Origin: Periplaneta americana
Lineage: Eukaryota > Arthropoda > Insecta > Blattodea > Blattidae
Length of the DNA: 64,000 nucleotides
Assembly: GCF_040183065.1 (NCBI RefSeq)
Contig: NC_091119.1
Span: 69,561,392-69,625,391 of the forward strand
Direction: 5' to 3'
A program made the translations under genes and the position numbers. This document shows positions 17,780-43,567 of this stretch, one piece after another. Every line of letters begins with the position of its first letter. The stretch's first letter is position 1. The notes beneath the pieces are model-generated. The model was not told where the DNA came from. It worked only from the letters and a program-made list of their open reading frames with translations, and searched no databases.

Positions 17780-19161
17780 CTCGTATGTATAGGAAAAATA
17801 AAGAAGCAACAGGGGATTTATGAAACCCCTTGGATTGCGTGAAAAGTCTTTATACTTCGTATACAATTTTCTGGATAAGTAAGGATGAATTTAAAGATTA
17901 GATAAATACTATAACAGATGAGATAAGTACACCTTATCAAAAAATTAGATAATGGAGCGAAATGAACCATATGAAATGATGCGAGAATGGGAAGAGTAAC
18001 TGAGGAAGAATTTGGGAGCTCTAAGTCAGTTGGCTATTTGTCTCACTTATTTTTTCAACATTCCACTGAAGGAACTTAAGAGATTTTGGGTGGGAAAAGC
18101 TGAAAAACAGACGTAACCTAATACCTATTACATGAGGGAGAGAACCATGTGAATAATCTCGAGGCACATTAAATAGAGAATGGGGGTGAGCCAGATCGCA
18201 TGGAAAATCACAAAGCACTAAGTTCATCTTACATTTCTGTTTCCATGGTATGAGTAATGTCAGAGAAAATCTTTCATGTCGAAATGTTACAAATTATCTC
18301 TTCTTGAAGGTCGCATATATACATTTCACGTCAAAATAACGCGATTAACAATTTACTCATATGTCACAGGTCTGCCTTTATTGCTTACTTGCAATAAAAC
18401 ACAAAATTCGAGAAAAAAAAACTTCTGTTTAAATGCACGTTTACTTAAAAACAATACCCACTGTATTAGACAGTAAGTTTTACAATTATTGTTCCAACAG
18501 AATTGTAAGTCTGCATAACCCCTCTACTTCTGTTAAAGAACATTTTAATTTGTTAGCACAACATAGAAGGTACCCTAGTGAATTTAACTTGAAAATATTA
18601 CTTTTTTTTTTAACTTAAGGTTTACATACCATACATATAATAAGATCTTTTGTACTACTTTTTCATTCAGCGTCACATTGAGAGAACTGCTACCTGAGTA
18701 TAAATTTTGGCATAATAAATGTGCACCAGCACTATGCCAAAAGTAACTCTTTCTCACAACATGAATACTGCACATGTTTATTTCTCAGAATCGAGTTCAT
18801 TGGCTTACAGCAGTAATTGGAAACCTACATGTAGAAAACATCAATATAAAATACAGAAATGCACAATAAAGTCATTAGTTTAAAAAATCCTAAAGTCTTT
18901 TCTTTAACTTATGTTATACGATTACTTAAAATAATATTGTAATTTCATTCTTAAATAATAAATATAAAAGTGTAATGTAATCACTGAACAAACAACAAGT
19001 GCTGAGAGAAGAAACTGTTATGCACAATAGTCCCAGAAAAGAAAAATGACCGGCTGGAATTTTCCAAGTCTCAGAAAAGAGGATTTGCACATGCACAGGA
19101 AGGCCTGAGCTGAGTTCACACGAGAATATAATTTTAAATTGTTATGTCTTAATAGTTAGCT
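17780..19161. other. No recognisable feature
   Basis: AT-rich sequence. I found no exon-like frame, terminal repeats or pol III boxes. Confidence 0.4.
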
Positions 19162-19330
19162 GGAAGGCCGGAGGGAAAAAGACCTTTGGGGAGGCCGAGA
19201 CGTAGATGGGAGGATAATATTAAAATGAATTTGAGGGAGGATTAATCTTGCTCAGGATAGGGACCAATGGCAGGCTTATGTGAGGGTGGCAATGAACCTC
19301 TGGGTTCCTTAAAAACTAGTAAGTAGTAGT
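19162..19330 (+). pseudogene. 3' end of an endonuclease/RT LINE
   Basis: The plus strand reads GRPEGKRPLGRPRRRWEDNI then KMNLRED, the C-terminal Arg-rich block that follows the RLRWAGHVARM motif in a common insect LINE. The same family supplies the minus-strand fragment at 47373-47655. Only the last part and 3' region are kept. Confidence 0.7.
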
Positions 19331-19504
19331 ATGTCTTAATAGTTTCAATCTAGATATGCACTTAAAAGGGGTAAATCATTTCTTTCCAAAATATTGTATC
19401 GTAATGAAGATGATTAGTGTTTTAAAATATCAATAAACTGTTATAACAAGTTCGAAATGCCTCTGCAGTAAACATATTTACTTAGTGAAGTGTTTGCAAA
19501 AGTC

Positions 19505-19923
19505 ACAGCTTCAGCTCTGATCTTTTCATCACGATGAAGGATGGGTGAAATGGAGAAAAATTCTCTCCAGAACCAGGACTTGAACCCAGGTTTCCAGCTC
19601 TATGTGGTGAAGCTTTATCCACTAAGCCACACCGGATACCAGTTCCGATGCCGGATTGAATCCTCCCAATTTAAGTTTCACCTCTTAGTTTCCCTTCATT
19701 GGCCAACCCACATGCACTATGTCACAGAAATGTGTAACAGTGGCACAATATCCAACACTATGAGCACAGGTGCAATCATTATGAGTGACTAAGTGGCCGG
19801 GATCTGACAGAATGAGTGCAGTCTTAAATCACTAAGTGATTATTTACGCATGTCATATTATTGTGATGTAGCAAAGTACATATGATATTTCCGTGCAGGA
19901 ATTCTGCATTATCATATGATGAG
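19505..19923 (-). mobile_element. Tail-duplicated SINE, copy C
   Basis: Minus-strand order: partial tail (CATCATATGATAATGCAG), body, tRNA-like head (GGTGTGGCTTAGTGGATAAA, then B-box GGTTCAAGTCC), then the start of a second tail cut off at about 19520. The tail hairpin is kept although its sequence changed (GCAGAATTCCTGC instead of GCAGAATATCTGC), so the pairing GCAG/CTGC persists. Related to copies at 24289 and 35592. Confidence 0.7.
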
Positions 19924-21440
19924 TTTGAATCCATATCGTGGCAGAATTATTTAAATCAATTTTTTAGCATATCTATGTAGTGTCAGATATGGGCAATTCA
20001 TTATCTCGTGAAACCAAAGATATGCGTACACTGTACCTTACAGTAAGAACCTTATGATGGAAGTAAGTGAGCTAGCTATCTGTAAGTGGAAGCAAAGAAG
20101 AAGAAGAAGGAAGCTTCCAAGTCCAATTAATACTTTCTCTCATGAGCAAGTACGTTTCACGAGATAACAAATATCCTATAATCGTACTCATTTAGTGATA
20201 TTTAACTTACCTAAGAATCCCCTAAATATTCAATATTTATGTCAGTTTTAAGGCAGTGAATGGATTTCGGTATTCAAGGCTGAGTTCAGTATGTGAATTT
20301 ATTGTTATGTTCTTAATTTACATCATTAAGCATTGAGGTAACATGTATACCATAAGCGCAACTTCTTTTTTAAATCTATGTCTTTAAACGTTTATGCTAG
20401 AGTAGCAGAATTCATATCATGATGAAAAGAAGTTCACTAAGTGTTGTCAAAGCTCACGTTCAACATGATTGAGTTCTAATCCAAAGTTACCAGATTCAAG
20501 TCCTTGCATCTATGAATCTGTTAGGTAAGTTAGGTAAAGAATGTTCTGAAAATTGAAGTCGTACATTTTAGCCACTGATATAAGTAAACAAAAAGCGTAA
20601 CTGTGGTGCAAAATAAAAGTATTATTTTTCGTAATTGAAATAAAGTAATATAGTAAGAAGCTCATCTTTCATGTCATTGGATGACTTCCTGCAATCCCTG
20701 GGACATTCCATATTTGAAATTAAATCTGGTCTTCCTGCCAAGGCATCACAGACATTCTGAATTAGTTGTCATCATTCATTGGCAGTCACAGGGGTTGCAT
20801 ATGGTCAATTCTTCCAAGGTGTTAAGAACATGTTTCAATATAGACATTTCACAAGATGGTCCTATCTTTGAAAAGACTTTAACAATATAGTTTAGTTCTA
20901 AGAGTTTTTTTTTTCTAACCTGTGGTGTGTTCATAGTGTGCCATACAAAAAAAGGGGGTATAAACTTAGAAACTATAAATCACAGAGAACGAAAAATTAT
21001 ACAATAAAAAATATATTTTCTAGTCAAGACTGAACATCAATTCTCCTGCAATGAGAGCAGAGGTCTATCGACTAGATCACAAACAGCATTGCGAAGCTTA
21101 TCGTCCAAGTGACTAACATTCAGTTAACCCTCGATTATTGATTATCAATTAAGAGACAACATACCTGTCTTCCATTGAAACAAATAAGCGAACTGTGAGT
21201 CAAAACTTCGATTTTGACTCAAACAAGAGTCCAGCCATTTTTTTCTTGGGGCGACTGCACAATTAACAGAAAAAAAAACCACAGGAGTATTTTATATTTA
21301 GGTTGAAAATACAATTTCTTATTGTTCATGTAGTTAATTAATTATCACAAGTTTTATGATGCAACAAAGTAAAAATGAATGAGACAAAAGCATGAATTTC
21401 TTCAGAAGAGAAGTGAAGTCCAGTTCCATGTTGTACATCT
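19924..21440. other. No gene recognised
   Basis: AT-rich. A short inverted pair (TTATCTCGTGAAAC near 20003 and GTTTCACGAGATAA near 20155) could mark a small MITE. Nothing else assignable. Confidence 0.35.
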
Positions 21441-21455
21441 ACATCTTCATGACCG

Positions 21456-22213
21456 GCTGCAAAAGGGTATCTGTCGGATACAGGGGGGAGAGCCATTAAT
21501 CCTTTCCATTGAAGGTTTTAAGGAACCAACCTGGACAAATACCCAATGTCCCATTCCTACCTTCCCATGGTGCAGCTGTTAGTAAGCATAATTTCATGAG
21601 TTGAACTAAAGGGAGGGGCTACTCATCAATTAGCACTGGTCAGCTTGATGAGTTAATGACTGAATTTGGTATAATTTTCCTCTATTCAATACCTAATTCC
21701 CTCTTTACCCTTTCCTATCCAGTCCTCTGACTGAACTCTTACTTTCTTCGACCCCAATGGCATTAGAGCATTCGAGGCCTAGGGGTTCATTTCCCTTTCC
21801 TTCCTCCTCTTTCTACCTTTCTGTTCCTAGTGCTGACCTGCTATGGCACTAAAATCGTCCTTCAGTGGCTTAAGGAGGGAAAGCTGGTGATCAATAAGAT
21901 CTCCCAGCTAGGTCCATGGACCCATGGTGTGGTCCTCCAGACATTCTGGGGGTTGTGTGTGAATGAAGTAGCCACCAAAACGTTAAAATATGGTGTTCAC
22001 TTAAATCGGCTACAACTTGCCATTTTCATGCATAGAATTGGAATATATCAATCCCCTAACTGCCCATTGTGCAACTCAAACCAAGAAATGGATTCGGAAC
22101 ACCTCAAAATCTGTGCTTCAGTGGCTGGTCATGATAATATCTTTGAAAAATATTGGAGTGCAAGAGGTCAAATGACTTTATTGTCAAATGCCTGGCATTA
22201 GAAAACAACAACA
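21456..22213 (+). mobile_element. Short internally deleted LINE with 15-bp target duplication
   Basis: ACATCTTCATGACCG is duplicated exactly at 21441-21455 and 22214-22228. Between them lies a 758-bp insert. Its 5' part (to about 21830) is non-coding, G- then T/C-rich, like a LINE 5' leader. Its 3' part encodes only the C-terminus of an RNase-H-type LINE: NCPLCNSNQEMDSEHLKICA (CCHC knuckle) to LLSNAWH stop, then a CAACAACAA tail. ORF1, endonuclease, RT and RNase H are absent. The exact duplication suggests a fairly recent insertion. Confidence 0.75.
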
Positions 22214-22228
22214 ACATCTTCATGACCG

Positions 22229-22890
22229 AATAGGTTTATAGTTTACCCTTGCAGTAGGAGCAAAAGAAGAAATCCTGTCCCCAAGAGAGAAGGCTCCAAA
22301 AACGTTTATTAACAGTTTTCCCACCCACATTGGAATTCAATTCTGTCACTCAATGTACATCATCCTATCATTTGGAGTAGTGAATTCTGCCTTGCAGATG
22401 CCACCATTTCAGAAATGGAATTCAACTGTCAGCTAGTGGAGTTCCGAGGCAAGAATGTAAACCACCAACTACATTTCGGTAGGTGATCAAACAAGATATA
22501 ATGAATTGCGAAGATTATGATCTAGTCTGATCTGGAAAAAACTGTGAGAGAGTACACAAACTGGTCAGATATTCACTGCACGAATGGGAATAATATAACT
22601 TTAATAAAGAAGAGTCTGCATATCAGCCATAGCGGTGAAGAAATTATCTGATTAAAAATAAAAGGAAAAGAAAATGAATTTCAGATTCTGTTTCTGCTGA
22701 AAAGATACTTCTAATAATATCATCTCGTAAACAGGTGGTAATACATCTGTAGCTCTGGATACTAAATAATTGTAAACATGACTCAATTCTGGACAAGATT
22801 CTCCTCAAGACAGATGATTACACAGAACTCCCTGTTTAGAGCAGATAAGACTTCAAAAGAGAAATAGGAAACTATAACTCAGTAGACACA
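22229..22890. other. No gene recognised
   Basis: Non-coding AT-rich sequence between two LINE-derived segments. Confidence 0.4.
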
Positions 22891-22899
22891 GTGAAGGCA

Positions 22900-23697
22900 A
22901 AGTACATAGGGAATAACTCAGGTAGTTTTCATCATGCAGAACTTATGCAGGAACTTAGGGTTGATCAGATTACTGACAAACTTTAAAGATACAGTTGGAC
23001 TGTTAATCAAAAAATTAACTCTCAATATGCTGTATTCAGTTATAAAACAAATGAAAGATGTCTAAAAACTCAAGTAGGCTTTATTCAGTCAGTAAACAAG
23101 CTGAAATCAAACCATCTAAAAATAGCCAGCCAAGCGTTACTAAATCTGCAAAACCCTCTCGAAATTACCATTGTTAGATCCTCCGTAGATCATGAGGACG
23201 TTTCCACTAAAAGTCAGATTGACAAGGAAAGTTTAAGCCTCATGGTTCTTGAGACTATCTATAACAGATACCCAGGATCCAAAATAGCTGGACACTTGAA
23301 TGCTGGAGCTGAAATCTATAGTAACCTGTTTTCATTTTATACCCCTATAGGCCAGAATACATCAGCTTTTGATGGGGAAGTCCAAGCAATTAAAGTGACA
23401 TTACAACTCACAGGCCACTTAGGAAAATTCAGTAATGCTGTTAACCTGTCTGACTCTAAAACAGCTATCCAATCAATTAGTCAGACTTTCCAGCCTGGTT
23501 CAATAGAAATAAAAGACTGCCAAGATATGCTAAAAGAACTTTCAGGAAACAATAAAACAGTTGTTCTACATTGGATACCTGGTCACTGCTCAATCTATGG
23601 AAATGATCAAGCAGACTCCTTGGCTAGGAAGGAAGCTCGGCTCCCACTAACCTACTCAAAACCATGGTGGGAATATAATGGTGTAGCAGACGGGTGA
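22900..23697 (+). pseudogene. LINE RNase H domain fragment
   Basis: The readable frame 23242-23697 contains FDGEVQAIK (acidic residue of the E motif), NLSDSKTAIQSI (Asp) and LHWIPGHCSIYGNDQADSLA (His and final Asp), the order of type I RNase H in I/Jockey-like LINEs. The first catalytic Asp block (usually TDGS) is missing between YPGSK and NAGAEIYSNL. Upstream to about 22900 is related but frame-shifted linker. It ends in KPWW, fused to another repeat. Confidence 0.75.
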
Positions 23698-24288
23698 CTC
23701 AAACTCGTTTTCTACTGCGTATGACGTCACTTGGGAAGCAGCAGCGGCGCGCTAATTCGCGCCACAGTCCTCGAGGAACAAAGCAAACAGCTGTTATGTG
23801 TATGTGCACGGTGTTAATTCTTTGTTTATATTATTATATTGAATGTTATTCTTGTATCAGTAATGCTATTAATGTGACACATTTTTAAATCGATAATGTA
23901 TTTGGAATAACTCACATCACACAATGACATTCGAGCATTACCACAGTACATTTAGCAAAACTACATCTATGGGCCGGTTTCACTAACCTTCAGTAAATCA
24001 GTCCAAATGAAACATTAACTACTGAACATTAAAATATTTAACGATTTACTACAATGCGAGCTGCTCACCAATCAAATTTTCTTAACATTTAATGAACAGT
24101 AAGTAATGGCTCGTTAAGGATAAATACTCGTAAATGTGATCTATGAATTTTTCATAACTATATCAGAACATCTTTATACGAAACCACAGTCTACTATATC
24201 GCAAATCGTGTACAGTATTAGAAAACAGTTTTGTTATGTCTCTTGGTAGTGGAAATGTTGAAATTTTGGGTATGCTTTACACGAATAA

Positions 24289-24768
24289 TACGATGAAAGA
24301 GTTCCATTACTCTTTCATCGTATGATGACGCAGAATATCTGCATGGAAATATCATGTGTACTTCGGTACATTAAAATAATATATATGATATGCGTAAATC
24401 ACTTCGTGATTTAAGATGGCGCTTATTCTGTCGGATCCCGGCCAACTAGTCACTCATAACGAGTTCACCTCAGCACATGTGTGGACTTCAGTCCTACGTT
24501 CAGAGACATCTATGACGTAGAGCAGAGGGCAGCCACTAGAGGGAACCCAAAAGTTGGAACTTAAACTGAGACGATTCTGTCCGGCGCCAGGGTGGATATC
24601 CGGTGTGGCTTAGTGGATAAAGCATCAGCACATAGAGCTGAAAACCCAGGTTCAAATCCCAGCGCCGGAGAGAATTTTTCTCCGTTCCATTACTCTTTCA
24701 TTGTATGATGACGCAGAATATCTGCATGGAAATATCATATGTACTTTGGTACATTAAAATAATATATA
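24289..24768 (+). mobile_element. Tail-duplicated SINE, copy A, with 12-bp target duplication
   Basis: TTACACGAATAA (24277-24288) and TTACACGAGTAA (24769-24780) flank the insert. An 86-bp tail is present at 24301-24386 and again at 24684-24769, with a few differences. Between them are a body and a tRNA-like head (TGTGGCTTAGTGGATAAAGC as A-box, GGTTCAAATCCC as B-box, about 24603-24668). Order: tail, body, head, tail. The left end starts with CGATGAAAGAG, the inverse of CTCTTTCATCG 8 bp further on. A pol III SINE normally starts at its head, so the copy ahead of the head is odd. Confidence 0.75.
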
Positions 24769-24845
24769 TTACACGAGTAAGTTTATATGCGCTGTCTCCC
24801 TAGACTTCAAGCCAAGCACCTATTATATGCCTCGTAATGCTTATT

Positions 24846-24925
24846 ACGCCTCAGCTCTTTGGTGGAGCAGTCATTAGTATGCTGGCTTGTCAACCGTGGG
24901 ACCCGAGTTTGACTCTCGGTAAGAA
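24846..24925 (+). repeat. tRNA-like (SINE head) sequence
   Basis: GCTCTTTGGTGGAGCAGT and GAGTTTGACTCTCGG have A-box and B-box character and tRNA-like spacing. The acceptor and anticodon stems do not pair well, so I take it as a SINE head rather than a working tRNA gene. Confidence 0.45.
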
Positions 24926-25117
24926 CTATTTTTTATTAACGTAACTAATTTTTATACATGTTATCTTTCTTCATTTTCTATTCTTTTTTGCAGTGAAACG
25001 AATTATTTCGCAACTCTGGCTCCACTAGAATTAAGAAAACCCTTGGGAGATCAATTTTCTTACAAAATACAACAAAAATAAACAAATTAATGAAAAAATA
25101 ATAATACACATGTAGAG

Positions 25118-25333
25118 CTAATACTTTGTCCACATGCCACTGGCGTCTATCACTGCCTGCGATCTTCGGGGCATTGAGTCCATCAGATCACGGAAATAGT
25201 TCTGGTCCTCAGAGAGATCTTCCCAGGTAGTCAGAACTTGATCCCACAACTGATCTGGATTTTGAGGTGAATTGTCTCGATATTTGTCAATCCTCCTCTT
25301 TGTCATGCATTTCTGTGAACTGTCTTTGAACAT
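25118..25333 (-). pseudogene. Tc1-like transposase C-terminus
   Basis: The minus strand reads RRIDKYRDNSPQNPDQLWDQ, VLTTWEDLSEDQNYFRDLMD and SMPRRSQAVIDASGMWTKY, the C-terminal end of Tc1-like transposases. No catalytic residues remain. It lies inside the Harbinger-like element. Confidence 0.75.
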
Positions 25334-25699
25334 ATATAGCAGTGTGGTTATCCTGCTGGAAATGAAATTTCCTTTGATGATATATAAATTCCATGAATCC
25401 AGTTCTTTCGCTTCTGTTTTAAAGCCAGTGCAAGCATATCTTATCGCTAGCTATAATATAATTCTAATAAATGAAAGTTAATATACCAAATAAGTTTTGT
25501 TATGTTTGAATGCACATTATGCATTAATTTACTAATATTGCTTAGGTATCGTTATAATAACCACTTTCATGTGTTAAAATAAAAACTCACTTGTATATTA
25601 CTTAGTTGACTAGTTTCAGCTTTGTCTCAGCTGTTTTTATGACATTCTAACCTATGATCAATTTCTTCTAAAATGTTGAGTACCACGATCTTCGTGACG

Positions 25700-25843
25700 C
25701 GGTATCTTTCGTGAATTTTTTGTGTCATTTAAGATTTCAAAATGATCGTTTCTTAAATGGTTAACATTATCTTCATCTGACTCTTAATTTTCGAGCAGTT
25801 CCCGATATAGGCCTAACAATTCTGCGTCGAAACGTTCCGCCAT
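25700..25843 (-). pseudogene. Possible HARBI1-like N-terminal fragment
   Basis: From the minus-strand ATG at 25843: MAERFDAELLGLYRELLEN, a stop, then ESDEDNVNHLRNDHFEILND in the same frame. It resembles the acidic N-terminus of insect Harbinger nuclease-like proteins. Short and broken. Confidence 0.35.
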
Positions 25844-26529
25844 TTTATATTGCAACTAATGAATCATTAAAAATTTAAAGACGGTAATTTCTTATCATCA
25901 TTGACTACTTCATAGCAGTCGTGTTAATATTCAATGAGGATGGAAAGACCTCATATAATGAATATTTGATGTACGGAAATTTCTGTCACTAAATATAATG
26001 ACAGTTTTACTGATTCGTTAGGCTAAAGATGGTTGGTAAGATATAAAAATGATTTAATGAACCAGTAAATAAATTAAAGAATCATTAAAACCTTAGTGAA
26101 GGTTGGTGAAACCGGCCCATTTGTCATAAACTGAATGTGTAATGTAAAATTAATTTTAGTAGGTAGCTTTATAGTTATTTTTATCTCACAAATTATACTG
26201 CTGTTTCAATAATTCAATTATTTACTGTTAAATAATTATAATATGTAGGTCTATTGTAGACGAACTGCAGAATTGTTACATCTGAATTTTGGTGAACTTA
26301 TTATTTTTTAAATTTAGATTCAAATTTTTTTTCGATGCATGTTGTTATTTTAAATTCCGAATGTGGTGACTGTATCCACCTCTTGTGCTTAAAATTGTTT
26401 TATGTTTTAAACATACAGAATTAATAAAAGTTAGTATATTTAATTAATAACAAGTAATATAAAGTGCCATATTTGGTTCTGATTTCTTGGTATTCATAAT
26501 CAATTAACTTACTCCTCTTCCAAAATCTT

Positions 26530-26660
26530 ACGGAGTTGAGCTGAGCTAAGCTAGCAAGCTGCGAGAGAGTTCGCAATGCTTCCCGCGTGACGTCATCACA
26601 TAGTACGAGATCGGGCGAGACTGCGCACTGCTTCACCATTATATTCCCATCACACTCAAA
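26530..26660 (-). repeat. Repeat shared inverted with 23650-23760
   Basis: TGGGAATATAATGGTG and a TGACGTCAC-containing block occur here on the minus strand and at 23665-23745 on the plus strand. The two copies therefore lie on either side of the Harbinger-like element in opposite orientation. Confidence 0.55.
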
Positions 26661-26907
26661 ACCAATATCATTCCAGTCTGTGAAAATAGCTGTAAAAGAG
26701 CAATTCAACACCTAGCCTCAAAACATCTGAGAAGCACTGGAGAGTGTCAATTCTGAAAATAACATTTCAGCCAAGAAAAAGTGCATTCGCACTATTTCGT
26801 CAAGCAACAGGGCATCATTTACTGGCGAAACACCTCTTTCGTTTGGGATAATGGAGACACCATCCTGCAAATTATGTAACTCTAATAAAGAGATGGACCG
26901 ACATCAC

Positions 26908-28011
26908 TAAAGCCCAGATTTCTAAGCAAAATGCATATTCTTTTCCACACTTTTAAAGGTAAGCAGAAAGGTTATATTTCATAAGATACACCCACATAAG
27001 CAGTTTTAACTATGTCTGTTAGTGCTTATAAATGCTTATTTCGCAGGAAAACGTTTTTGCTTACTTATTTTACGATTTTTAATTAAATCAGCATATTTTA
27101 TCCAAAACTGTACTTTTAAAAGTGCATATTTCACTCCTAGCCATCCTTTATCACAGATTCCCTTTCTTTTATTGGCTAATAAAAAATTAACTTCAGTCGA
27201 ATGCGTAAGAAGGCAATGCTAGGGTATGACCCAGATGTTGTGAAATAATACTGCATAGTTCTAATTAGGAGAGAGTCTTGGGATTCCCCACCAAGCTTCT
27301 GTGACTAGGCAGGTCAATTGGTTATCGCACTTATCACATGGATGGTGAATCCCAGAGTTCCAAACTGCAGTGTGCAAGTTGTGCAACACGCATTGTTTCA
27401 ATAAGGGGTGTGTGATTGCTCACTGTTATAATTAAGAAATGTCACCCACAAAAACCTTTCAATCAGCATTCTTATGCAAATTCTTTCCAAACGAGTCTGG
27501 AAGTAACATTTTCAGGAAGGACGGCAGTGTCTAATTTTGTTTGGTGTGTGAAAAGAGTGTTTTTGCAAAGAAAAAAATGACATTGTGCAGCATATTGATA
27601 CAACATGGCACAAGGAGAGGTTTAAGAATAAATATAAGTTAAACCAGCAACTGATTAAAGCAATGTGGGTGAACAATCGAGTTCTGGTGATACAATTTTC
27701 AAAGACTTGTGTTTAGCATTAGCAGGTTCCAATATTCTGTCGAAAGAACATTTTCACTGTACAAATCGTTTTTCACTGACAGACACAGGAGCTTCACACA
27801 GGAAAATCTCAGGATGACCTACCTTGTATACTGCAACAGCCTTCAATAAGGTAAGAGTTTCTCGAAACAAATAATTTTATCATATTTCCATGTATTCGTT
27901 TTTGCTTATTTTACTGTTTCTGTGTATCCGTTTTTGCTTATTTTCACCATTTTTCGTGCTTATTTGCTTGCTTATTTTACTGTTTGATTGTGCTTAGAAA
28001 TCCGGGTTTTA
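26908..28011 (+). mobile_element. Internally deleted hAT, CGGBP1-like family
   Basis: Ends TAAAGCCCAGATTTCTAAGC and (minus) TAAAACCCGGATTTCTAAGC are inverted repeats. Flanking octamers GACATCAC and GACATTAC differ at one base, fitting a hAT duplication. The plus strand near 27520 gives a BED-like finger (CLVCEKSVFAKKKNDIVQHI then H). It is joined directly to a C-terminal dimerisation segment near 27730-27840 (VERSFSLYKSFFTDRR-like, frame-shifted). The catalytic core is deleted. Both inner flanks are rich in GCTTATTT words. Confidence 0.8.
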
Positions 28012-29903
28012 GACATTACCTTTCAATGTGTCCTGGCCTACAGTCACTCACAGAAGTGAAACGCTGATGGGAAGCCAGAAAGAAGAAGTTTTTTCTATAA
28101 AATTGTTTCTTAATGTTTGTTCACTTGTTGTTTTCTTTGAAGATTGATGATTCTATAATCAATTTATCAGCCATTAGATAAATAAATAAATAAATATGCT
28201 GTATTCATATGGTCCTTGAATATGAAAGCCAGAATGGACACTATTAAGATACTACAAATATATGGCAAAACTGACCTGACTTTTTGGAAGCAAAGGTTTT
28301 CAAAAGCACAGATCGAACTAGGTTTATGCTGACAGAATGTTATTCCTCAAATCATGCTTTGGAGTTAGCAGAAGGAAACAATTGCAAAATGAAGGAATTT
28401 CTCTGTAACTAAAGGACTAATTAGAACAGACAATTAATATGAACACACATTTGACAAATCTTAGATTATACAACTAGAGATAAAAAAAAAAGGTTGAAGG
28501 AAATCAAAATGGCTTAGTGTTTTAAGAAGAGGTGAACTGTGAAGTTACATTAAAGATGTTCCATATGTACCATATTGTAATTTTCTCTTTAATTAAAAAA
28601 AATTACGAATGGGTAGAGTAAACACTGAAGTATTCCATTTATCCTGCATTTATTTAATTAGAATTATAACTTACTTCTCTACATGCAAAATTCTTTCAAT
28701 TTTCTAATTGTTTTATGAATATAACACATACATAATATAACTGTTTTCTGTCATGATAAAACGTGACCAAATTGTTTACATTACAATGTATTTTTTTTAT
28801 TCTTCCTAGTTCTGTAGGAAGGGAAGAAAAAAGATTTAGGGGGAGAGACTAACAACAATTAGTAGTATACTACAAAAAAAAAAAAGTAAGACAACAGATT
28901 TTGTAAAGCTTGCCTTACGTTTTGAACTGAGATTCTATAAACTGTACGTGTTATTTATTACTTGTTACTGGTTTAGTATCATTCTGTGCCTAATTACCAG
29001 TTAAAAATACTAAAATACATCTGAACATTTTTTTTATCTTACATACACTTTTTCCTGAAAAAAATCTGTACCTGCCAACAATTCCTAGGTTATGTGCTGT
29101 GAAACTCCATAGAGACTGTAACTGCTGCAGTAGCATCACTCAATTTTCTTTATTTTTTAAATTTCCATCTGACATGGAAGAAATTCTAGATTTATAATTG
29201 CAAAAATAATAATTACTTTACTCATGAGTTTTGTGGTTAAACAGTAGTAACATTTGGATACTGAATTTCACAAAAAATATATTTAATAAAATTCAGAAAT
29301 TAACCTCATATATGAACAATTGAATTCCTACATGGGGAAATTTATTCTAAATCAACAAATTTGAACTGTGCACAGCTCTTCTTTAAGATTAAGTGATACT
29401 AACACAAATCTTCATTTCTTGTTATTACAGTACAATATACATTCATGACCACAACACAGAATAAGTACCAAATATTCACGATATTACATGCACTTTGATA
29501 ATATCAAATTTTAAATAATATGTAGTAGTTCTCATTAATCCGAAATTTAATTTGCTGGAAAGACAAACTACATATATGCTATGTCATGAAAAGTAAAAGA
29601 GAGAATAAATTTACATGAACTCAAAATCTAAGATCTCATATATATATAATTTCAACATCTCGATGCAATACATTGTTTTACATCACTTTTTTGTTTGTAC
29701 TCTTTGCTTCTGGAGCACTTATTTTTTCAATATGCTACATCAACTGAGCAATGATACTAAGCATTATGATTCTGTCATTGTTTTTCAAGTCTAAAGGCGA
29801 CTCTAAATCACCAAAAGTTGTCACCTCAATTTTGGTATTCTAAAGAGAGCTACAATGCATTTTGGTAATTTTGTGCTGAGCAATTTGCCAAATGTATAAT
29901 GTA
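28012..29903. other. No gene recognised
   Basis: Unusually free of recognisable repeats, AT-rich, with only a short (AAAT)n near 28176-28194. No exon-like frame seen. Confidence 0.4.
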
Positions 29904-30651
29904 CAGGGTGATTTACGAGGATTTACCGCCACTTACGGAGCTTATTTCTGAAGATATTCTGAGCAAAAGATGTCATATAAACATGTGTTCTAATCTCAAT
30001 ATTTTCAGAGTTACATTAATTTGAATCTGTTTGTAAAATACCATTATTCTTTAGTTTTAAGGGTAAAAGAATATTATAAACAGAGAATGAATTATTCAGG
30101 AGTATGATTTCTTTAATTAGCTAGTATTCTGAAGTTAAAAATGTATTGTGAATTCCATAATTGCTTCGTAAACAACTTTTTTCGATTTTTAACTACAAAA
30201 TTACATTTTTCTTACGCATTTATCACAACAATTGTTACAAATTACGCCACTCTTGTAAATTCTTCAAAACTGTACATTAGGCTGCATAATTACACTGTGA
30301 AGAATCAAGTTCCTAAAATCGTATGATTTTAACACTTTCTGTGATAGGTGCGTAAGAATAATGTAATTTTCAGTTAAACATTGAAAAACAAAATCTGTAC
30401 AAAGCAATTAACAACACATTTTTAGCTTTAGAAAACTAGACAATTAAAGAAATGACACTTCTGAATAGTTCATTCTCTATTTGTAATATTCTTTTACCCT
30501 TAAAAGTAAAGAAAAAAAGTATTTAATTAACAACTTCAAATTAGTGTCTCTGAAAATAATGAGATTAAGACACATGTTCATATGACTTTTTGCTCAGAAT
30601 GCCTTCGGAAATTAGCTGCGTAAGTGGCGGTAAATCCTCGTGAATCCCCTG
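29904..30651. mobile_element. Foldback MITE, copy 1
   Basis: TA-flanked. The left end CAGGGTGATTTACGAGGATT and the right end (minus) CAGGGGATTCACGAGGATTT start inverted halves that stay complementary over most of the 748 bp, so one strand can fold into a long hairpin. No coding capacity. A second degenerate copy lies at 59285-59970. Confidence 0.85.
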
Positions 30652-30653
30652 TA

Positions 30654-33104
30654 TATACACACTTCTTTTTCTTTTCCGAGATTAGGTCAAATACAATTCT
30701 AACCTGTTATCATGAAAACCCTTCTTACAAATTGAACTTCCTTTTGAAAATATGGTATGCCAAAACTTAATACTCCTCTTCCGCCCTGCTGTGCCTTTAA
30801 AGTTTTCTTTAATCTAAATATCAAAACAATTTTTACCCAATATTAATTATTTAATAACTGGTAGAAAATGTTACATTTGAATACAAGAGATGTCTGAAAA
30901 CTGTTGAAAAGGTGACGCACAACAATCCCTGAATAATGATGAGGTATGCAAACATTTAATATTAAGGTCCCATCATTAGCCTGAAAGCTACACTCAGCTT
31001 TCCATGCTGAAGACCTGGGTTTAAATACTAGACAATTCAAGTGGAAATTATGGTGGACCAAGTCAGTGATTTGGACAACTTTTAAAGAGGGTACTCCAAT
31101 TTCCTCTGCCATCACTATCACTTCTCCATTAAACATGTATATCCCAGTATAATGCAGATTCATCTTCATGTAGCACACCACAGTCGAGACGATAAAAGTT
31201 TAGTATGCACCATTAGATAAAAAATATTCAGACTGTTTATTTCATCACAATGAACTGAGCGAGGTATGTAAATGAGATACATGGTTAACTACCACGAACT
31301 GATCATCTTTACTCATAGAAGCTTGAGTGCATTCCAGGACCTTTTGAAAATAGCAGAGATCTCTTGCTTCAGACTGAACCTACGGCCTTCCCCTTAGCTA
31401 TTAATTGCTTCAATCACTGAGTTAGCTGATCATAAAATATTTTATATCGAAAGACTCCAATCTTGAGTCTGAGTTGGTACTACCCAGATCACATATAACA
31501 GATTGATAAGCCTCATGGGCTTTGAAAGCAACAATTTTTATCAATTTCACTATGCTGCCATCTAGTGACTGCGAAAGAAGTCACGTTGTAACTTTCATTT
31601 GAATTGCGTGGAGCAACTGTACTTCCATCTAGCAGTCGTTACCAATCGACAGTGGCAATCCTGATGGTTGTTCTCTTTCATATGTTACCGTTTTTAACAT
31701 GGGGATGGCCAATCTGTTATATATGTGATCAGGGGTACTACTTTGAAGTATGCCAGCATGACTTTAGTTACAATGTCTTTAGCCCTACTTATGCTCGCCA
31801 AGTTTTTAACCTCTACCACCACAGAAACACAAAAACATACCAGTGTTTCTGTTAACATTAAGGGCATATTGTGATAGCTAGAGCTTTATCTGTTATGAAA
31901 TTTATGACTATACAGTGAACTCTCGAGTCAACTGACTAAGGACCAAAACCAACCAAAAGTTAGAAATGCTGTATACAATTTTAGACGATATTTGCTCAGA
32001 AATGGTTGGATGAAAGTGAAGCAGACCCAAGTTACCTAGCACACTCAATCTGGGAGAGTCAAGAAGCATGTGAAGAAATCAAAGATGATGATTCACATGA
32101 AGACTCGAACTACGAGTGATGAAATCCAAGATGTTATCATTTATATTGATGTGTGTCACAATCCTGAGAATAAGTAATTTACAGCAGAACCCCATTTGCC
32201 AGAGTCACACGGGACCAGGCATGATCAGATGATTGGAAATCGAAAAAATAATGACATAAATAAGACAGTTTACATACATGTTACTAACTGCACTTCACAA
32301 TAAAATATTTAGTTAAATACAAATGATCTACATCTTTGCATAATAAAATGTAACAAATATATAAAGTAAGTATAAGTTCGACTTGAATTAGGATACTGTA
32401 TCTTAATTATGAAGCCCTGAATATTTAGGTTTTAAAAAACTAAAATTTGTTTTTTTCAACACATGCTTCAGTAATTTTTAAAATTCTAAATCTTTCATTT
32501 AGAAAATTATATGTTTTTAAAGAAAAAATGAAAATAAGCAAAATACTATTAGACATATTAAAATATCTGGTATTATAACATAGTACGTCAAAAACATAGC
32601 CTGATGACGGAATGTTTTATGAAATTATTCACCAATATTAACACATATTAAGAGTCTAGTATGCCTACAACACTTGTTAAATTATTACACCCGCAAGCCA
32701 TTCTGATTAGTGCTCCTAACATGACAATGAACAATTAAATATTTTGACAGATTTTCAGGAGTAAAACCTCCTCATATAAATCCTCAAGATCTGCTTTACT
32801 GCAAGAGTGGATTACTATTCGTACAATATAAGTCAATTTGCTCGATTAAAGGGATAAAGTCTAATAAAATAATTCCTTTAATAACAAACTGAATTATATT
32901 GTAAGAAAACAATATTAAAGTCTGCATTACTACAGTCGTGCTCAAACCTCCTGACGTTTGCAGGTGTGTCCGCTTATCGGTGATAGCCAATAGCGGCAGT
33001 GCTGTGTTGCAACATATGGGCATGCAAACTCGCCGCTTAGAAAGTCTCAAGGTCAAATAACAACTGTGCTCAGAAAATTGGTATGTTGTAGGGACCCTTC
33101 ACAT

Positions 33105-33106
<2 letters not shown>
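30654..33106. other. No gene; possible pogo-like ends
   Basis: ACAGTGAACTCTCGAGTCAA near 31912 and ACAGCAGAACCCCATTTGCC near 32181 have the look of pogo/Tigger termini. A weak acidic reading frame lies between them. No complete element can be drawn. Confidence 0.35.

Positions 33107-33163
<57 letters not shown>
33107..33163. repeat. AT dinucleotide repeat
   Basis: (AT)n of about 50 bp preceded by ACATACATAT; low-complexity frames on both strands are artefacts. Confidence 0.9.
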
Positions 33164-33168
<5 letters not shown>

Positions 33169-33245
33169 AATGTTTGGTGTTTTCTGAACACACAGAAACA
33201 AAAATCACATTTCAACCCCCAGTGGTTCCAATTATATGGGTTAAT

Positions 33246-33924
33246 ACAGTAAAACCCTGATAAGACTCTGTTCAAGGGAGCACATGTAAACCGCATATTA
33301 ATTGGGACCTCGTATTAGGCGAGCATGCTAATTTTGACATATACAGTATCTATTAGAATTTTTCTTTATTGAAATACATGATTCATGGAAGTAATACAGT
33401 ATTATTCCAATATGTAATTACTGTTCTGTACGTCAAAGATATTTACATTATGTACTGGACTTAATTCTTTTGAAAAAAGTCATTTATAGTTGTTTTCCGT
33501 GTGCATGTTCTCCAAGTGCTCATGTTTACCGCAATTCACTTTCTTGCACTTACATCCTCCCGACGTCGCAGCTGCAGTGATTGAGTCGCGATTTTTTATT
33601 ATTGTTCTTAATGTCAATGATGGGATTCCTAATGAATCAGAGAGTTGTTTCTGATTAAGAGTACTGTTTTCATCGTACTTTCATAAGATTTCCAATTTTT
33701 CCGACACAGAAAGCGCTTTTCATATAATACTCATTGTAATCACACTCATAGGCACTTCAGTACACTAAAAGACAACTGACCTGCAAAAATTTCCATTCAA
33801 TGGCCAAATGTTTCATTTCTGTTACAGTACATTGCTGAAAATTACATCGAAAATATTCCACAAAAACAGCGTATTATACGGGACTTCAGCGCAACATGGT
33901 ATTTTATAAAGGTGTTATAATATA
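33246..33924 (-). mobile_element. pogo/Tigger-like fragment with CENP-B-type HTH
   Basis: The left terminus reads TACAGTAAAACCCTGATAAG. On the minus strand 33722-33480 reads KALSVSEKLEIL, a stop, then NQKQLSDSLGIPSLTLRTII and KNRDSI, the CENP-B-like DNA-binding HTH at the N-terminus of pogo/Tigger transposases. The catalytic domain is absent. The right limit is set by the next element and is approximate. Confidence 0.6.
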
Positions 33925-34110
33925 CAGGGTGTTTCCGAGGTGGTGTTACAAACTTTCAGGGATGATGGCGAAGGGCACATGTATCAATTTGAGATAAGGA
34001 ACCATGGTCCGGAAATGGCTGAGTCGAAAGTTATAAGCAAAAATAACTGGTACATAAAATGAGAAAGGAGTGATATTTCAAAACTAACGTGATAGCAACA
34101 GAATAGGTTT
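33925..34110 (+). mobile_element. One end of a TA-flanked element
   Basis: TA then CAGGGTGTTTCCGAGGTGGT, the same terminus style as at 1487. The following sequence is non-coding and no partner end was found. Confidence 0.4.
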
Positions 34111-35591
34111 GAACCTAAAAATCCGGGGCTTCCTAATTACATACCTATGAATATGAGTTTCATTTGTTTAAGCTTAACATGACATTTGTGTGCTGCACGG
34201 TCTCGTCATCATACACACTTATTTGCTTGCTAGACATGTCTAAAATAATTCTTTTTACGAAATTAATCTGGATAAATCATAATTAAAAGTATCCAGATAA
34301 ATGGAGTCCCACTGTACTTCAGAGGTTTAAAATCGACTGTGATTGCGATCCCAGTGCAGTATAAGAGTGGAAAGCATCACTTATTTCGTCTACTTTTGCC
34401 CTACACAAACAGAGTTCAATGAGCCTGAGGAGCCACACAGCTCGTCTAACTCAGAATGAATGATTACTTCGAGACTCATTATACACAGCACAGCAAATAA
34501 GACTTAATCTTGGTAACACGATCACTCACTCGCCATCAGGAACTGATAAGCAAGAAATCTGCACAATGACACAACTGAATTCAGATTTCGTTGGTGTTCT
34601 CACAAGAGGACGTAGTCGTAAAAATAACCATGGTTAGTTACACTACTGAGAAACGAATATTCATTATGGAAATCCATTAGTGAAAATGTCGCATGTGAAA
34701 TGTTTGACCAAATTTCGGCTATGTTTTCTGGAAGCTACTAAACCATCTAAGCAATATGTCCTTAACTTGTTTAAAGTGTCATGAAACAGGCTCCACTTTA
34801 AACAATAGAAAAAGACAATATAAAAAACAGCCCTCACAGGATCTTGATGATATGAGAAGAAGATTGATGCAAAGTCCAAAGTCAAACCTTCAAGATGGTT
34901 AGCGCAGGAATAAGTCGCAAAGATTTGTTATACGAGGGCTCAAAATGCTTAAGTTTTATCTATATAAAGTGTCAGTATGTCGTTTGCCAGAGAACAGAGT
35001 GACTGGTGGCATGCAAGCACGTTATCAGGATCAGTTTTGTTTAGCAAGCTCTGTATGATCATAGTAGTACACTCTCATCTCTCTGTTATTCGAGATAAAT
35101 AAAAGTTATTTTAAATTTACTGTTGTGGTTTAAATCACGCACACATAATAGTTCTATCATTTTTATACTATAGTCCTGTCATTCTTATTTCCGGCAGCCA
35201 ATCACGTTGCAGGCCGGCTACATTTAAATGTGTGCGTCTTGTGATTCGCTGCTGATGATGTTATGCACTTCCTAAGGCTCGATAAATACTTAATATAATC
35301 GCCACCATTTTGGCTCTTTCGTTGGCGTTCGCAGACAGCACACGAGGACGTTATTTGCCACTCAATTATTTGCTCAATTACAGTGCGTTTGATTTATTAT
35401 CACAGGAGCTACAACATGATCATGTTTAACGGTGTAGCAAATAAGATACCTCGCCTGGTAGCTAGGCAACGAAAGAATAAAAATGGCAAACGATACTACC
35501 TACATAGACTTTATAGAGTCTTCACTTCCTAAGGTGTAAGCAAAGAGTAGGAGTCACGTCAGAAATAACAGCGACACGACTATAATTTATT
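34111..35591. other. No gene recognised
   Basis: AT-rich. The minus strand near 34320 reads TACAGTGGGACTCCATTTAT, which could be another pogo-like end. Otherwise nothing assignable. Confidence 0.35.
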
Positions 35592-36013
35592 GTATGATGA
35601 ATGAGTGATGGAACGGAGAAAAATTCTCTCCGGCGCTGGGATTTGAACCCGGGTTTTCAGCTCTACGTGCTGATGCTTTATCCACTAAGCCACGCCGGAT
35701 ACGACCCCGACGCCGGTTAGAATCGTCTCAGATTAAGCTCCATCTCTTGGGTTCCCTCTAGTGGCCGCCCTCTCCACTACGTCATAGATGTCTATGAACG
35801 CAGGACCGAAGTCCATATATGTGTTGAGGTGCACTCGAATGAGTGACTGGTTGGCCGGGATCCGACGGTATGGGCGCCGTCTTAAATCACAAAGTGATTT
35901 ATTACGCATATCATATATATATTTTGATGTACCGAAGTACATATGATATTTCCATGCAGATATTCTGCGTCATCATATGATGAATGAGTGATGGAACGGA
36001 GAAAAATTCTCGG
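35592..36013 (-). mobile_element. Tail-duplicated SINE, copy B
   Basis: Minus-strand order: tail (36011-35914), body, tRNA-like head (GGCGTGGCTTAGTGGATAAA and B-box GGTTCAAATCCC, about 35695-35635), then the first part of a second tail ending near 35592. It matches copies A and C in order, so tail-body-head-tail is the family structure. Its 5' end (minus sense) continues into an inverted tail copy. Confidence 0.75.
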
Positions 36014-36118
36014 CGCCGGAGAGAATTTTTCTCCGTTCCATCACTCATTCATCATATGATGACGCAGAATATCTGCATGGAAATATCATATGTACTTCGG
36101 TACATCAAAATATATATA
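35914..36118. repeat. Perfect palindrome, 98-bp arms, 9-nt loop
   Basis: 35914-36011 and 36021-36118 are exact reverse complements by base-by-base reading, with loop GGCGCCGGA. Each arm is the SINE tail, including GCAGAATATCTGC and GTACTTCGGTAC hairpins. Confidence 0.95.
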
Positions 36119-37057
36119 TAATTTATTGGTTTTCTTTGAGAGTTTTGTACTTATGGTGAGAAACGCAGAAGAATTAAAGCCTACAACACCTTGGCAATGC
36201 CAATGTTTTCATATAGCAATAAAGTCTCATCATAAGGAAGTGTGATAAAAACAATCATGGTCAGCAAAATTAAATTTTTGAGGACTGCTAGATATATATA
36301 ATTAAATAAAAAATAAATATGGATACTTTGAAAAAATTAAAAATAAAATTAATCACATTTCACAATGATAAATTTTGACACAACATAGTCTTCATATATC
36401 TATAGGACACATATAACTTAACAGTTCCTTATTACAGATCAAGAGGAAGAGCTTAGTATAACACATTGTAATCACAGAGTATTGATTATTCAATCTAGCT
36501 TGAAGAAGAAGCAATTAATTGCAATCAGTTTCGACCTCAAATTTAGATATCCTCACTTTATAAAAAAAAAAAACCCCAAACAGAGGTATACAGTATTTGG
36601 GAACACACCCATGCTGGGTTGCAAGAAAACAGACCTATAAATAATATATTTCTCCATTAGTTGGTGGACCTTTAAAGTTAGTGGATTGTCTGGTTGCAGA
36701 AGAGGAATTTAACGGGCCACTAGTTATTGGATCATTAACCAAGCATCTTTGGTTTTCACAAGTGACGTAATAGTACATGAATGAATAAAAAGTGAACATT
36801 GGTTGCCTGACTAATATGAGAAATTATTTTTATTGTTGTCAAAATTTGCAATAAATATAGACTAATATGAACCAGAAAGAAATATGGAACAGAAGTTTAA
36901 GTGAGAAAGATAAATATGCCTATTTGTTACTAGAAATAGCACACGAGTGCATTGATTTTATAGAAAATAAAAAGACACACTACACAGCACATAACCTCGT
37001 CGTCAGATGATGAACTAGAGTCTGTGAATAATTAAGAAAATAAGTAATCAAATTACA

Positions 37058-37322
37058 GTATATCGGTGGCTAAGAAGAGATACCTCGTATCTACAAAATT
37101 GGTAATTTAGTTTAACTACATTATTACTATTTAGATTAACTACATTATTATCTTCACAAAATTGGACAGTGTACTAATATTTTGTTCTCGAGTATAAGAT
37201 CTTGCAAAGCAGAAACATAGAGTAAGTTTGTCTATTTTGAGAAATTAATTTCTGAAAGAGTTTTTTTTATTTACCTGTAAATGTACAGATACGAGGTATC
37301 ACTTCTTAGGCATCGATATGCA
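37058..37322. mobile_element. Possible MITE with about 40-bp inverted repeats
   Basis: GAGATACCTCGTATCT near 37078 with flanking CTAAGAAG is matched inverted by AGATACGAGGTATCACTTCT near 37287, with a few changes. The roughly 170-bp centre is non-coding. Target duplication not seen. Confidence 0.5.
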
Positions 37323-40300
37323 ATATTATTTTACTATCGTGTATATGGGCCTATTATACAAAATATCGCATGCCTGAATCTCGTACAGGTAACATTATGA
37401 TGAATCAAAATATATAATCTACTCGCCAATACACAAAATATACGTAAGATGGCTGCCTAACGGAGGAATAAATATTATTATAGAAGGGAAATCAGATCTC
37501 TAAGTTAGTGAATCCTTTAACAGACCAATAACACTAAAGAAGTTTCTTGCAACGCGTCTTTCGAACTTATTGGTCCATTAGCAACTAACGAAGGAATAAA
37601 TGCGTTCTTGCAACCCACCGTCAGAATGATATCAGAAGCAGAAAACAGACCATAAGGCTCAACATGTGCAAGGATATTGGCGACATTATTGTTATTATTA
37701 TTATTATTTCTTCAACATCATTGGAAATTACAATCTGCAGTGATGAACATCCTCTGTTTCCATTAGCATGTTGACTCAAAAGTGGAATATAAATATTATG
37801 GTAATGTGTTCATTATAGCATTTGTTATCAAATCAGGCAATTCTCTCATAAAGACACTAGCAGATGACATTTGCTATGAGGAAGGATCAGGAAGTTAGAT
37901 ACAAATTGAAGTAGCGACCTACATTTTTTAAAGAGGTGCCTAAAGCTATTGCCAGTAGATTGCCATATTATTGCTATATGCACAAGCAAAAATAATTGAT
38001 ACAAGCACTGATGCAGGCTGGTAATGATGAACCCAAGACTCATAATCTCTGACTATCCAGGCAATCTTCATTGGCTGACCGACTAGATGTTCGATACTCA
38101 TCCACCTTTCAGAGAACTTCTGAATTCAAGTGCAGACAGCTTGACGAGACAGGCAATGTACACCATAAACAGGCAGCTTTGTTCTGTGAATATTCTTTGC
38201 TGCCAAACCTACCAGACAGAAAAAATGCACAACAAAACCCTGCCGACAATGGTACACTTGTACAGAAGTGCTGCCATCTTGAAACTGCTGCTTCTTTGTT
38301 TTGCTTGTGCATTCATCAATCACCTTTGGATAATATTGCCATCTAGCAGTAATAGCCTCAGGTGCCTCACTACAAAATGTAGGTCATTAACTTGATTTGT
38401 AACTTACTGATTCGCCTGTGTACTTCTCAAGATTTTCATAATACAGATAGGTTTGATCTACATATAAATATATCACTGTACTAGGAAATGGTAAGGAATC
38501 AATAATTTCAGTTTGTGTTTAGCAATACACAAAAATTATATAGAGGAAATGATGGGATTCAAGAATACAATGAAGGTTGAAATTTATAGGAATCAAGTAA
38601 TTATAAAAGGCTCCATTTGTACAAGTGGTGATTGTAATTAGCATTCACAATTTTGAGACCATCACATCACGCTTTGCTTTGCCCTCTTGGAAGGAGAGTG
38701 ATGAAACTACTACTTCCATTTCACTTCAATATGTAAAAATAAATAGCGCAGCTCTGAAATTATCTTCCTAAAATGAAAGCTTAATATTGAGTTCATATTA
38801 CAAGGTGCACAATCATTCACACTTTATTATTATTTTTCTTAAAAAACGTAGATGACATAGATAATGAATGTTGGAATTGGAATGGTAGTCAGAACAAAAC
38901 TTGCCACATTTCAAATGAATGTGTTCTGCTGGCCCACAAGTCACAACCGTTCTGGTAATGTTCTCAATTTTAAATTTTTTGTCACACAAATCTTATTGTT
39001 CTTGCACACAATATCACTACCGATAAGAGCACTCAAAATGGACCAAGTTTTTTTATGCTTAACAGAAAGGCACCGCAAAACACAACTGCTGTCATTTTTT
39101 TTTTCTTTTAAAGTGGACATAACATTTTTATGCGCAAATATTTCTATGCAAATGTCAGTTTGGCGAACACAAAAGCACAAAAACATCAAAGTCTGAAAAT
39201 ATTTAACCATCTGTTCAATGAGTATAAAAAGCTGTAAATTGAACACTTAATTTGGTGCCAAGAATCACAGGCACTTATATTATTTTAATAGTGATTTGTA
39301 TAAAATTAACTTCATAACTAATTTATCTAAATGTGAACACTATACATACACTAACTGTTTTAAAAGGGAAAACAACAAGTGACCTCTATGTTCCACAAAC
39401 ACACAAGGTACATGATCCATTCAGAAACTGAACAGATATTGTAGCTTCTGTATTCTTGGAGCATTGTAGGTTTATATAGGATAAATAATAAAAAATACAA
39501 CAAAAACTAAAATATTAGACGCACATTTATATCTGCATCCTCTGGCATTACCCCATTGCCACAACTTCCACACACGCTATGAGGAATACAGAACTCTCAC
39601 AATCAATCATACAGTTCGATGCATGCAGTTCTTGTTTATATGAGACCAATTTGAAAGTGACTGTATGAAGTGATTGTGATGATCTGCATTACTGATTAAG
39701 GATAGACAGAGCAAATATAAAACTCTTTTAAAAGCATATCCCTTCTAGCAGGATAATGCCAAATAACAGAAAATAAAAAAATCTTGTGACCTTAGGAACA
39801 GTTGCATTATATAATTATAAACAAGCAATATAAGAGCATGAAAGCAGCCCATTGCAATTATAATTTTTTTACCAGTTAAGGCCTGTGCTTCATTTTAAAA
39901 AACTACATTACGAGTCTTTATATGTCATTAGAAAGCATGAATTCTCTCATTCTCTTGTACATTCATTCATTTTCAGTTTTAAAACAAGTCATTTAAAAAA
40001 AGCAGCCTCACTTTACACTTACACAGCACCGTGCACAAAGAGAAATAAAAGTTTTGCACATTAAATTATCTTTGTCAATATCTAGATGTAAACGACAACA
40101 CATTACAGTACATAAAAATCACCCTACAGTATTCTCCTTTTGCATTTTCATTGCAGAGATCATTGTTACTTTGTCGTATTCCAACTAGAAACCCTCCAAT
40201 ATTTCTGATGGAGGAGAAAGGGAATATTCTTCAAGAGACGCAGCTGTTTCCCATATATTGGATAAATTGGCTTCTGATATCAACCTCTAGTTTCAGCCTA

Positions 40301-43371: not shown

Positions 43372-43522
43372 CACACAATTGCAGTTCAATACACACACAT
43401 TATTAGACGTCATAATACATCATAACACACAAATAGCCAGCCCCCACCATAGGAACAACACACCTCCACCCCTACCATCGACAAATGCACATCACAGAGT
43501 CAAGATCACCAGTGGTTCAAGA

Positions 43523-43567
43523 GACACTAAAGATGACGTGACATAGCGTTGAAACGGGCCGTCTGTC
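43523..43567 (+). ncRNA. Candidate hammerhead ribozyme-like fold in the Penelope-like tail
   Basis: Order in the RNA sense: GACA (43523-43526), CTAAAGA (43527-43533), a helix GACG/CGTT around a loop, GAAA (43551-43554), CG-GGC-CG, then T, C (43563) and TGTC (43564-43567). GACA/TGTC would be stem I, CG/CG plus A-U a short stem III, and C the cleavage site. Hammerheads in Penelope-like elements are known. CTAAAGA departs from the consensus CTGANGA at the conserved G, and stem II has an unpaired base, so activity is doubtful. Confidence 0.45.

Follow-up and report, generated by a model that had tools for sequence, protein, structure and literature searches.

SINEs are generally regarded as dependent on LINEs for their mobility, and the transposition cycle of Penelope-like elements (PLEs) is only partly known. 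The Anolis PLE protein cleaves and extends both strands, starting at two adjacent internal sites of the RNA that match the genomic "tail", and in that study the start sites did not differ between the strands (PMC11167929). In rotifer PLEs, two pLTRs are direct and one is inverted, a 31-bp tail occupies one of the ends, and target-site duplications (TSDs) measure 8–10 bp (PMC3846280). On circumstantial grounds, PLEs have also been proposed as mobilisers of animal retrozymes (PMC7229834).

The element studied here occurs as three copies (A, B and C) in the window, the whole stretch of 64,000 nt of Periplaneta americana DNA that was analysed. With PLEs (Penelope/Poseidon, GIY-YIG) it shares head-to-head arms, two nearby outer sites, TSDs of about 9–13 bp, AT-rich targets and tandem units; it differs from them in having no ORF, a tRNA-like head and no similarity to the PLE ends compared, and whereas hammerheads are common in PLEs, none was detected in copy A or in the unit. 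Metazoan (non-LTR) retrozymes resemble it by a short unit, multimeric copies and TSDs longer than 4 bp, but the element has a tRNA promoter and no hammerhead was found in it; the main text describing retrozymes does not contain the word "inverted" (PMC7229834). The tRNA SINEs of Blattodea (Talua in termites, Sbg1–9 in Blattella) are likewise small, with an A/B-box head and a long TSD. Insertions of Sbg elements begin with the head, 11 bp upstream of the A box, whereas the present element ends at two tail sites with its arms inverted; its insertions do not have the limits of a SINE, which are a 5' end at the tRNA head and only one 3' end. Helenus, a TRIM with tRNA in its LTRs, also combines terminal direct repeats with a tRNA-derived pol III promoter, but has 4-bp TSDs in animals and uses LTR machinery (PMC10886601).

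Structure of the window copies

The unit of the element measures 383 bp and comprises a body, a tRNA-like head and a tail. The features of the three copies are the following (strand in brackets where there is one).

24277–24288: left TSD of copy A, TTACACGAATAA, direct repeat with the right copy, 11/12
24289–24301 (-): short arm of copy A, 13 nt of inverted tail read from the sequence as an inverted repeat, outer end at site 1 (unit 319)
24301–24386 (+): tail 1 of copy A, 96.5% identical to tail 2 over 86 bp
24387–24598 (+): body of copy A, unit positions 1–212; 24388–24595 is 85.6% identical to B and 73.3% to C
24574–24587 (+): left arm, in copy A, of the inverted repeat bracketing the tRNA; pairs with 24662–24675, 13/14
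24599–24670 (+): tRNA-like head of copy A, tRNA-Tyr, anticodon ata (ARAGORN)
24606–24616 and 24649–24659 (+): A box and B box of copy A, at unit positions 220 and 263
24675–24679 (+): T5 run of copy A, a potential pol III terminator, adjoining the 3' side of the tRNA
24684–24769 (+): tail 2 of copy A, outer end at site 2 (unit 383)
24769–24780: right TSD of copy A, TTACACGAGTAA, direct repeat, 11/12
35581–35592: left TSD of copy B, TATAATTTATTG, perfect direct repeat
35593–36011 (-): long arm of copy B, in sense order head end, tail, body, tRNA, tail, cut at site 1
35628–35699 (-): tRNA head of copy B (ARAGORN; Rfam tRNA, 56.9 bits)
36012–36116 (+): short arm of copy B, head end and full tail, outer end at site 2; 102-nt inverted repeat with 1 mismatch
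36117–36128: right TSD of copy B, perfect 12-bp direct repeat
19526–19922 (-): copy C, an old single arm, outer end near site 1 (unit 312 to 325)

The earlier note had read all three copies in the order tail, body, tRNA head, tail. In copy A, the 12-bp target duplication with one mismatch and the presence of the same 86-bp tail before the body and after the head were both borne out; the order stands as well, while the first 13 nt, which are inverted tail and form a very short second arm, had been missed. The order is only partly right for copy B, which extends to 36116: the insertion (35593–36116) consists of two head-to-head arms, with 101 matches over the 102-nt inverted stretch, and its second tail stops after some 22 nt, where the inverted arm adjoins. 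Copy C, 82.6% identical to the consensus unit, has the order described, with a second tail reduced to a short remnant. The view of the copies as inserted units with target duplications was upheld. An 11/12 direct match at the spacing of copy A is found at 2 of 63,496 window positions and a 12/12 match at the spacing of copy B at 1 of 63,452; for copy C, no convincing TSD was found.

Read in the orientation of the body, the inverted piece of copy A starts at the tail sequence CATCGTA and the other end is the tail sequence TATATAT, while in copy B the inverted tail ends at TATATATA and the direct one at CATCATA. From these end points, both copies use site 1 (unit ~319) and site 2 (unit ~383), one per side. 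Tails within one copy (96.5% over 86 bp in A, 101/102 between the inverted arms of B) are closer to each other than the tails of A and B are (~93%), which speaks against a fixed dimer whose halves age independently. For A and B, the predicted fold of the tail is a three-way junction that places site 1 in the loop of a hairpin (z -1.6 to -2.5), and the shorter tail of copy C is predicted to fold differently. The fold predicted for A and B would fit an enzyme binding site, but does not prove one.

The A and B boxes are canonical in the consensus and exact in 94/107 and 98/112 unit passes, respectively, and the tRNA head may drive transcription. Of 130 passes, 123 have kept the T5 run that follows the tRNA intact; at least one T5 together with sequence upstream of it is present in 86 of the 92 arms sampled from the genome (see below), and three are present in 11. 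Since arms span T5 runs, either pol III reads through T5 or another polymerase makes the template. An Rfam search of 18000–37500 at E≤1 returned tRNA alone above the gathering score, with other families below threshold. For copy A (24250–24800), no ribozyme family was recovered at E≤10, tRNA again being the sole match above the gathering score, and the motif CTGANGA is absent from either strand of the unit. A hammerhead in the tail was considered and rejected; a stretch of the form TGATGA-stem-GGAAA resembles the core, but it has no leading C and no Rfam match.

Two minor features were seen in and beside copy A. Within its body, 24530–24555 holds CCACTAGAGGGAAC, which we take to be near the CTCF core motif. 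Directly past the copy, 24850–24935 looks tRNA-like by eye and contains GAGTTTGACTCTCGG, which resembles a B box; ARAGORN made no call there, and the stretch is perhaps another SINE.

Outer ends, duplications and arms across the genome

The genome of the window itself, a 3.23-Gb assembly of 91 contigs, was searched with full copy A (6273 first-look candidates, of which the best 40 were scored, giving 88 matches) and with the body only (3214 candidates, best 40 scored, 44 matches). The element is a real repeat family in this genome. Exact-pattern scans of viral contigs and genome contigs revealed no relatives elsewhere. Sixty loci were excised and resolved into 55 separate places, a non-random sample made of the best matches to copy A. 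Two loci, L044 and L055, are each counted twice owing to an inserted stretch, and copy A figures among the 55 as a single piece, its 13-nt arm lying below the cut-off.

Head-to-head pairs were found at 40 of the 55 places, and 36 of the 40 have one site-1 and one site-2 end, a count that omits window copies B and C. These results do not support a SINE with a single 3' end. The order with both tails is one view of a two-armed insertion, and the oddity noted earlier, though real, is one piece of a structure with greater regularity. Among the 36 pairs, site-1 ends lie at unit 316–334 (25 at 316–321) and site-2 ends at 378–389 (25 at 380–383), the site windows (312–336, and 376–383 plus 1–8) having been set after the first table. 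The site-1 arm is on the left in 22 and on the right in 14. In an earlier table of 38 pairs, 35 had both ends at a site, and 34 of these combined the two sites, for which a free choice of site gives p ~1e-9. The four deviating pairs are L033 (unit 16 and site 1), L045 (site 2 twice), L048 (13 and 155) and L044 (371 and site 2, one arm being broken by the inserted stretch).

Single arms ending at one site account for 11 of the 55 places; two are halves of interrupted copies and one is an old fragment, at 86.5%, in L002. Of the remaining four places, L011 runs beyond the fetched stretch and three hold a single piece of another kind, namely copy A, part of L055 and, in L025, a degenerate fragment. 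The loci L044 and L055 carry a related insert of about 650–690 bp (L044:1718–2408 and L055:1718–2364), over which they are 88% alike. Because its unit position (~370) is the same in both of these separate copies, this insert was probably carried by a source copy.

TSDs were sought with a slack of 8 bases at each end, a minimum of 6 bp and at most one mismatch. They reach at least 8 bp in 31 of the 36 pairs and at least 9 bp in 28, with a mode of 12 bp (exactly 12 in 18 pairs); one of them, in L052, is a CAT microsatellite. The same routine applied to 288 false right ends gave at least 8 bp in 29 (10%), at least 9 bp in 5 (1.7%) and 12 bp in 1. In 27 TSDs the A+T content is 78.5%, vs 62.4% in the fetched DNA. 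This figure, like the junction and divergence statistics given below, comes from the earlier table, comprising 49 insertions or 38 pairs, each including copy B; that table leaves out separate insertions whose first 40 nt are identical.

Arms exceed one unit in 47 of 92 cases and two units in 14, up to 1136 nt (2.97 units), and the cut-off arm of L011 is longer still. Since arms run past one unit, the template RNA is multimeric, as a tandem transcript or a circle, and the earlier suggestion of a tandem or circular template is supported in the form of a multimer of the head-tail-body unit. Arm lengths cluster, by eye, around 112, 495 and 878 nt, i.e. 112 nt plus whole units. This is due in part to arms being joined at the inverted repeat on either side of the tRNA (188–205 and 272–289), where they meet in 6 of 38 pairs with ends at 205–209 and 270–274. 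Without these six pairs, inner ends are still in excess at 204–214 (8/64, 1.8 expected) and at 266–297 (17/64, 5.3 expected), in windows picked after seeing the data. Both excesses correspond to the edges of the tRNA (unit 213–284); otherwise the inner ends are spread round the unit, so that the genome-wide tabulation suggested earlier did not show most copies starting at the tRNA head. The ends at the tRNA edges could be 5' ends of the RNA, produced by a pol III start near 209 (11 bp upstream of the A box, as is reported for SINEs of Blattella) or by tRNA processing, or they could mark places where the enzyme halted at a stable fold.

Penelope-like elements of the same genome

A PLE is present in the window.

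41629–43371 (+): PLE frame, probably 5'-truncated, with an RVT_1 domain (Pfam RVT_1, E 2.4e-15)

Its C-terminus resembles GIY-YIG by eye only, and Pfam gave RVT_1 alone. Just upstream of the frame, in 40845–41243, a 58-bp stretch occurs as five degenerate copies, most of them spaced by 71–72 bp. With this protein as query, the genome yielded 45163 first-look candidates, 75 of which were scored; 8 head-to-head pairs were seen among these 75, and the outer ends were fetched for all of them.

In seven of the eight pairs, one arm ends at 295–331 and the other at 355–357 of the same 3' region, with TSDs of 9–13 bp. The short end is scattered over 36 nt, within limits set after seeing the data, and the PLE reference ended at position 357, so that longer ends could not show; in three pairs (C15, C17 and C14) the duplication starts at or within one base of the 357 end, which supports that end. 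The two sites are 26–44 nt apart in six of the seven pairs and 62 nt apart in C8, compared with 64 nt in the element. In the eighth pair, C16, both ends are at 319, the same sequence is found in both flanks and the duplication is only the 6-nt TATATA. The flanks of C16 (L065 and L066) read alike outward, which points to either a genuine inverted duplication or an assembly error that created a palindrome. One rule of insertion is thus shared by the element and the PLEs of this genome.

PLE 3' regions were compared with the unit for 2 pairs, the window copy and 8 further copies (6 of a second group and 2 of the first). Apart from one copy with a nested element, no similarity beyond chance to the unit was found among these, and a partner PLE was not recovered among them, the window PLE included. 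The PLE 3' regions fetched contain what we take to be a hammerhead-like core, CTGAAGA or CTGATGA ... GAAAC. CTGAAGA occupies the corresponding position in four PLE copies (L061–L064). Past the PLE frame of the window, 43520–43572 also carries a hammerhead-like core, CTAAAGATGACG...GTTGAAACGG, with one core change by eye and no call by Rfam.

Possible modes of copying

In our sample the element has two fixed outer ends, head-to-head arms, duplications of about 12 bp and arms of several units, and the PLEs follow the same rule. We consider it likely that it is a short non-autonomous retroelement, with tRNA-bearing units of 383 bp, copied by PLE-type machinery rather than by that of LINEs. By analogy with the systems cited above, the likeness to PLEs is strong as regards mechanism; membership by sequence is unproven. 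The unit has no ORF, 383 bp being too short for one encoding RT and GIY-YIG, and shows no similarity to the PLE ends compared, which are a small part of the PLEs of this genome, and for these reasons we describe the element as working like a PLE and not as a proven member.

By the same analogy, we infer that a PLE enzyme is the copier. The machinery would take up a multimeric RNA of the unit, and its endonuclease would cut AT-rich DNA in a staggered manner, the two breaks lying about 12 bp from each other. Reverse transcription of the RNA would then be primed by both 3' ends, at site 1 for one of them and, 64 nt farther downstream, at site 2 for the other. From there the two cDNAs would extend upstream through up to three units before stopping or running off, and would be joined head to head, sometimes at the inverted repeat round the tRNA. 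Because start sites are equal on both strands in Anolis, the data from that system alone leave the use of one site of each kind per copy unexplained. The two arms need not come off one template, since units of the same and of different pass index in the two arms diverge to the same extent (4.0% vs 4.2%).

With somewhat less assurance, we favour a more specific proposal: a SINE-like element whose pol III promoter derives from a tRNA would be mobilised in trans by PLE machinery via a multimeric, perhaps circular RNA, the tRNA replacing the hammerhead of PLEs and retrozymes as promoter and as maker of RNA ends. PLE-dependent SINEs would then form a class alongside the SINEs that depend on LINEs and the TRIMs that bear a tRNA. 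Neither a PLE-dependent SINE nor a tRNA-bearing PLE client was found in the open-licence literature, which does not prove their absence. If the proposal is true, a high-copy 383-nt client of PLE type in a PLE-rich genome amounts to many natural insertions from which the rules of PLEs could be read, namely the start site per side, the spacing of start sites, the joining of cDNAs and the tandem vs circular nature of the template. The element also supports, at the level of insertions, the view that animal retrozymes and similar small multimeric elements are mobilised by PLEs (PMC7229834).

A retrozyme-like template, that is, a circular RNA of one unit copied for several rounds, is compatible with PLE copying and is a possibility that we hold only tentatively. 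A 383-nt unit and its multimers resemble metazoan retrozymes, whose RNAs measure about 170–400 nt (PMC7229834). In agreement with a circle, units diverge by 2.8% within an arm, compared with 4.1% between the arms of one insertion and 4.4% between insertions, and private substitutions common to two units are about 20 times more frequent within insertions than between them (25 in 150 pairs), at 0.36 vs 0.017 per unit pair. A tandem transcript accounts for the same data, however, and copy A matched no Rfam ribozyme family, as described above. The array of L011 (L011:1–1499) also speaks against a circle of one unit. It contains about five units, and at each of its four junctions the same stretch of ~42 bp, lying between two ACTTCG repeats, is missing; this gap removes site 2, and the facing arm aligns without it. 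By eye, the units are of two types instead of one, in the order a, b, b, a, a, and a tandem source fits better than a one-unit circle.

An unlikely explanation is a SINE mobilised by a LINE, in which a dimeric or tandem pol III transcript would be inserted by target-primed reverse transcription and the inversions would result from twin priming. Twin priming is not expected to produce a fixed second site, whereas here the second end is fixed at unit 316–334 in 36 of the 40 pairs, with 25 at 316–321. The site-1 arm moreover occurs on either side, and PLEs of the same genome obey the same rule. In favour of a LINE are the head with its canonical A and B boxes, the AT-rich tail that ends copy A, TSDs of about 12 bp, which also suit LINEs and compare with 10–15 bp for Blattella SINEs, and the precedent of a dimeric SINE in a cockroach, Sbg9 (PMC9191728).

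It is very improbable that the element is a Helenus-like TRIM with a tRNA promoter, its tails being LTRs. Copy A does show direct repeats at both ends with an adjoining tRNA-like sequence, but the TSD mode is 12 bp, as measured by a routine with a 6-bp minimum, vs 4 bp in animal Helenus (PMC10886601), the head-to-head arms vary in length and one "LTR" is cut internally, always at a fixed site. That an ordinary SINE starting with its head had dimerised by chance in the three window copies, an explanation suggested by the small number of copies first seen and by nothing further, is hardly credible, as the body-only search, which involves no selection for tails, led to 25 places first seen there, of which 18 hold pairs (14 with site-1 and site-2 ends and 4 others), 6 hold single arms ending at a site and 1 holds another piece.
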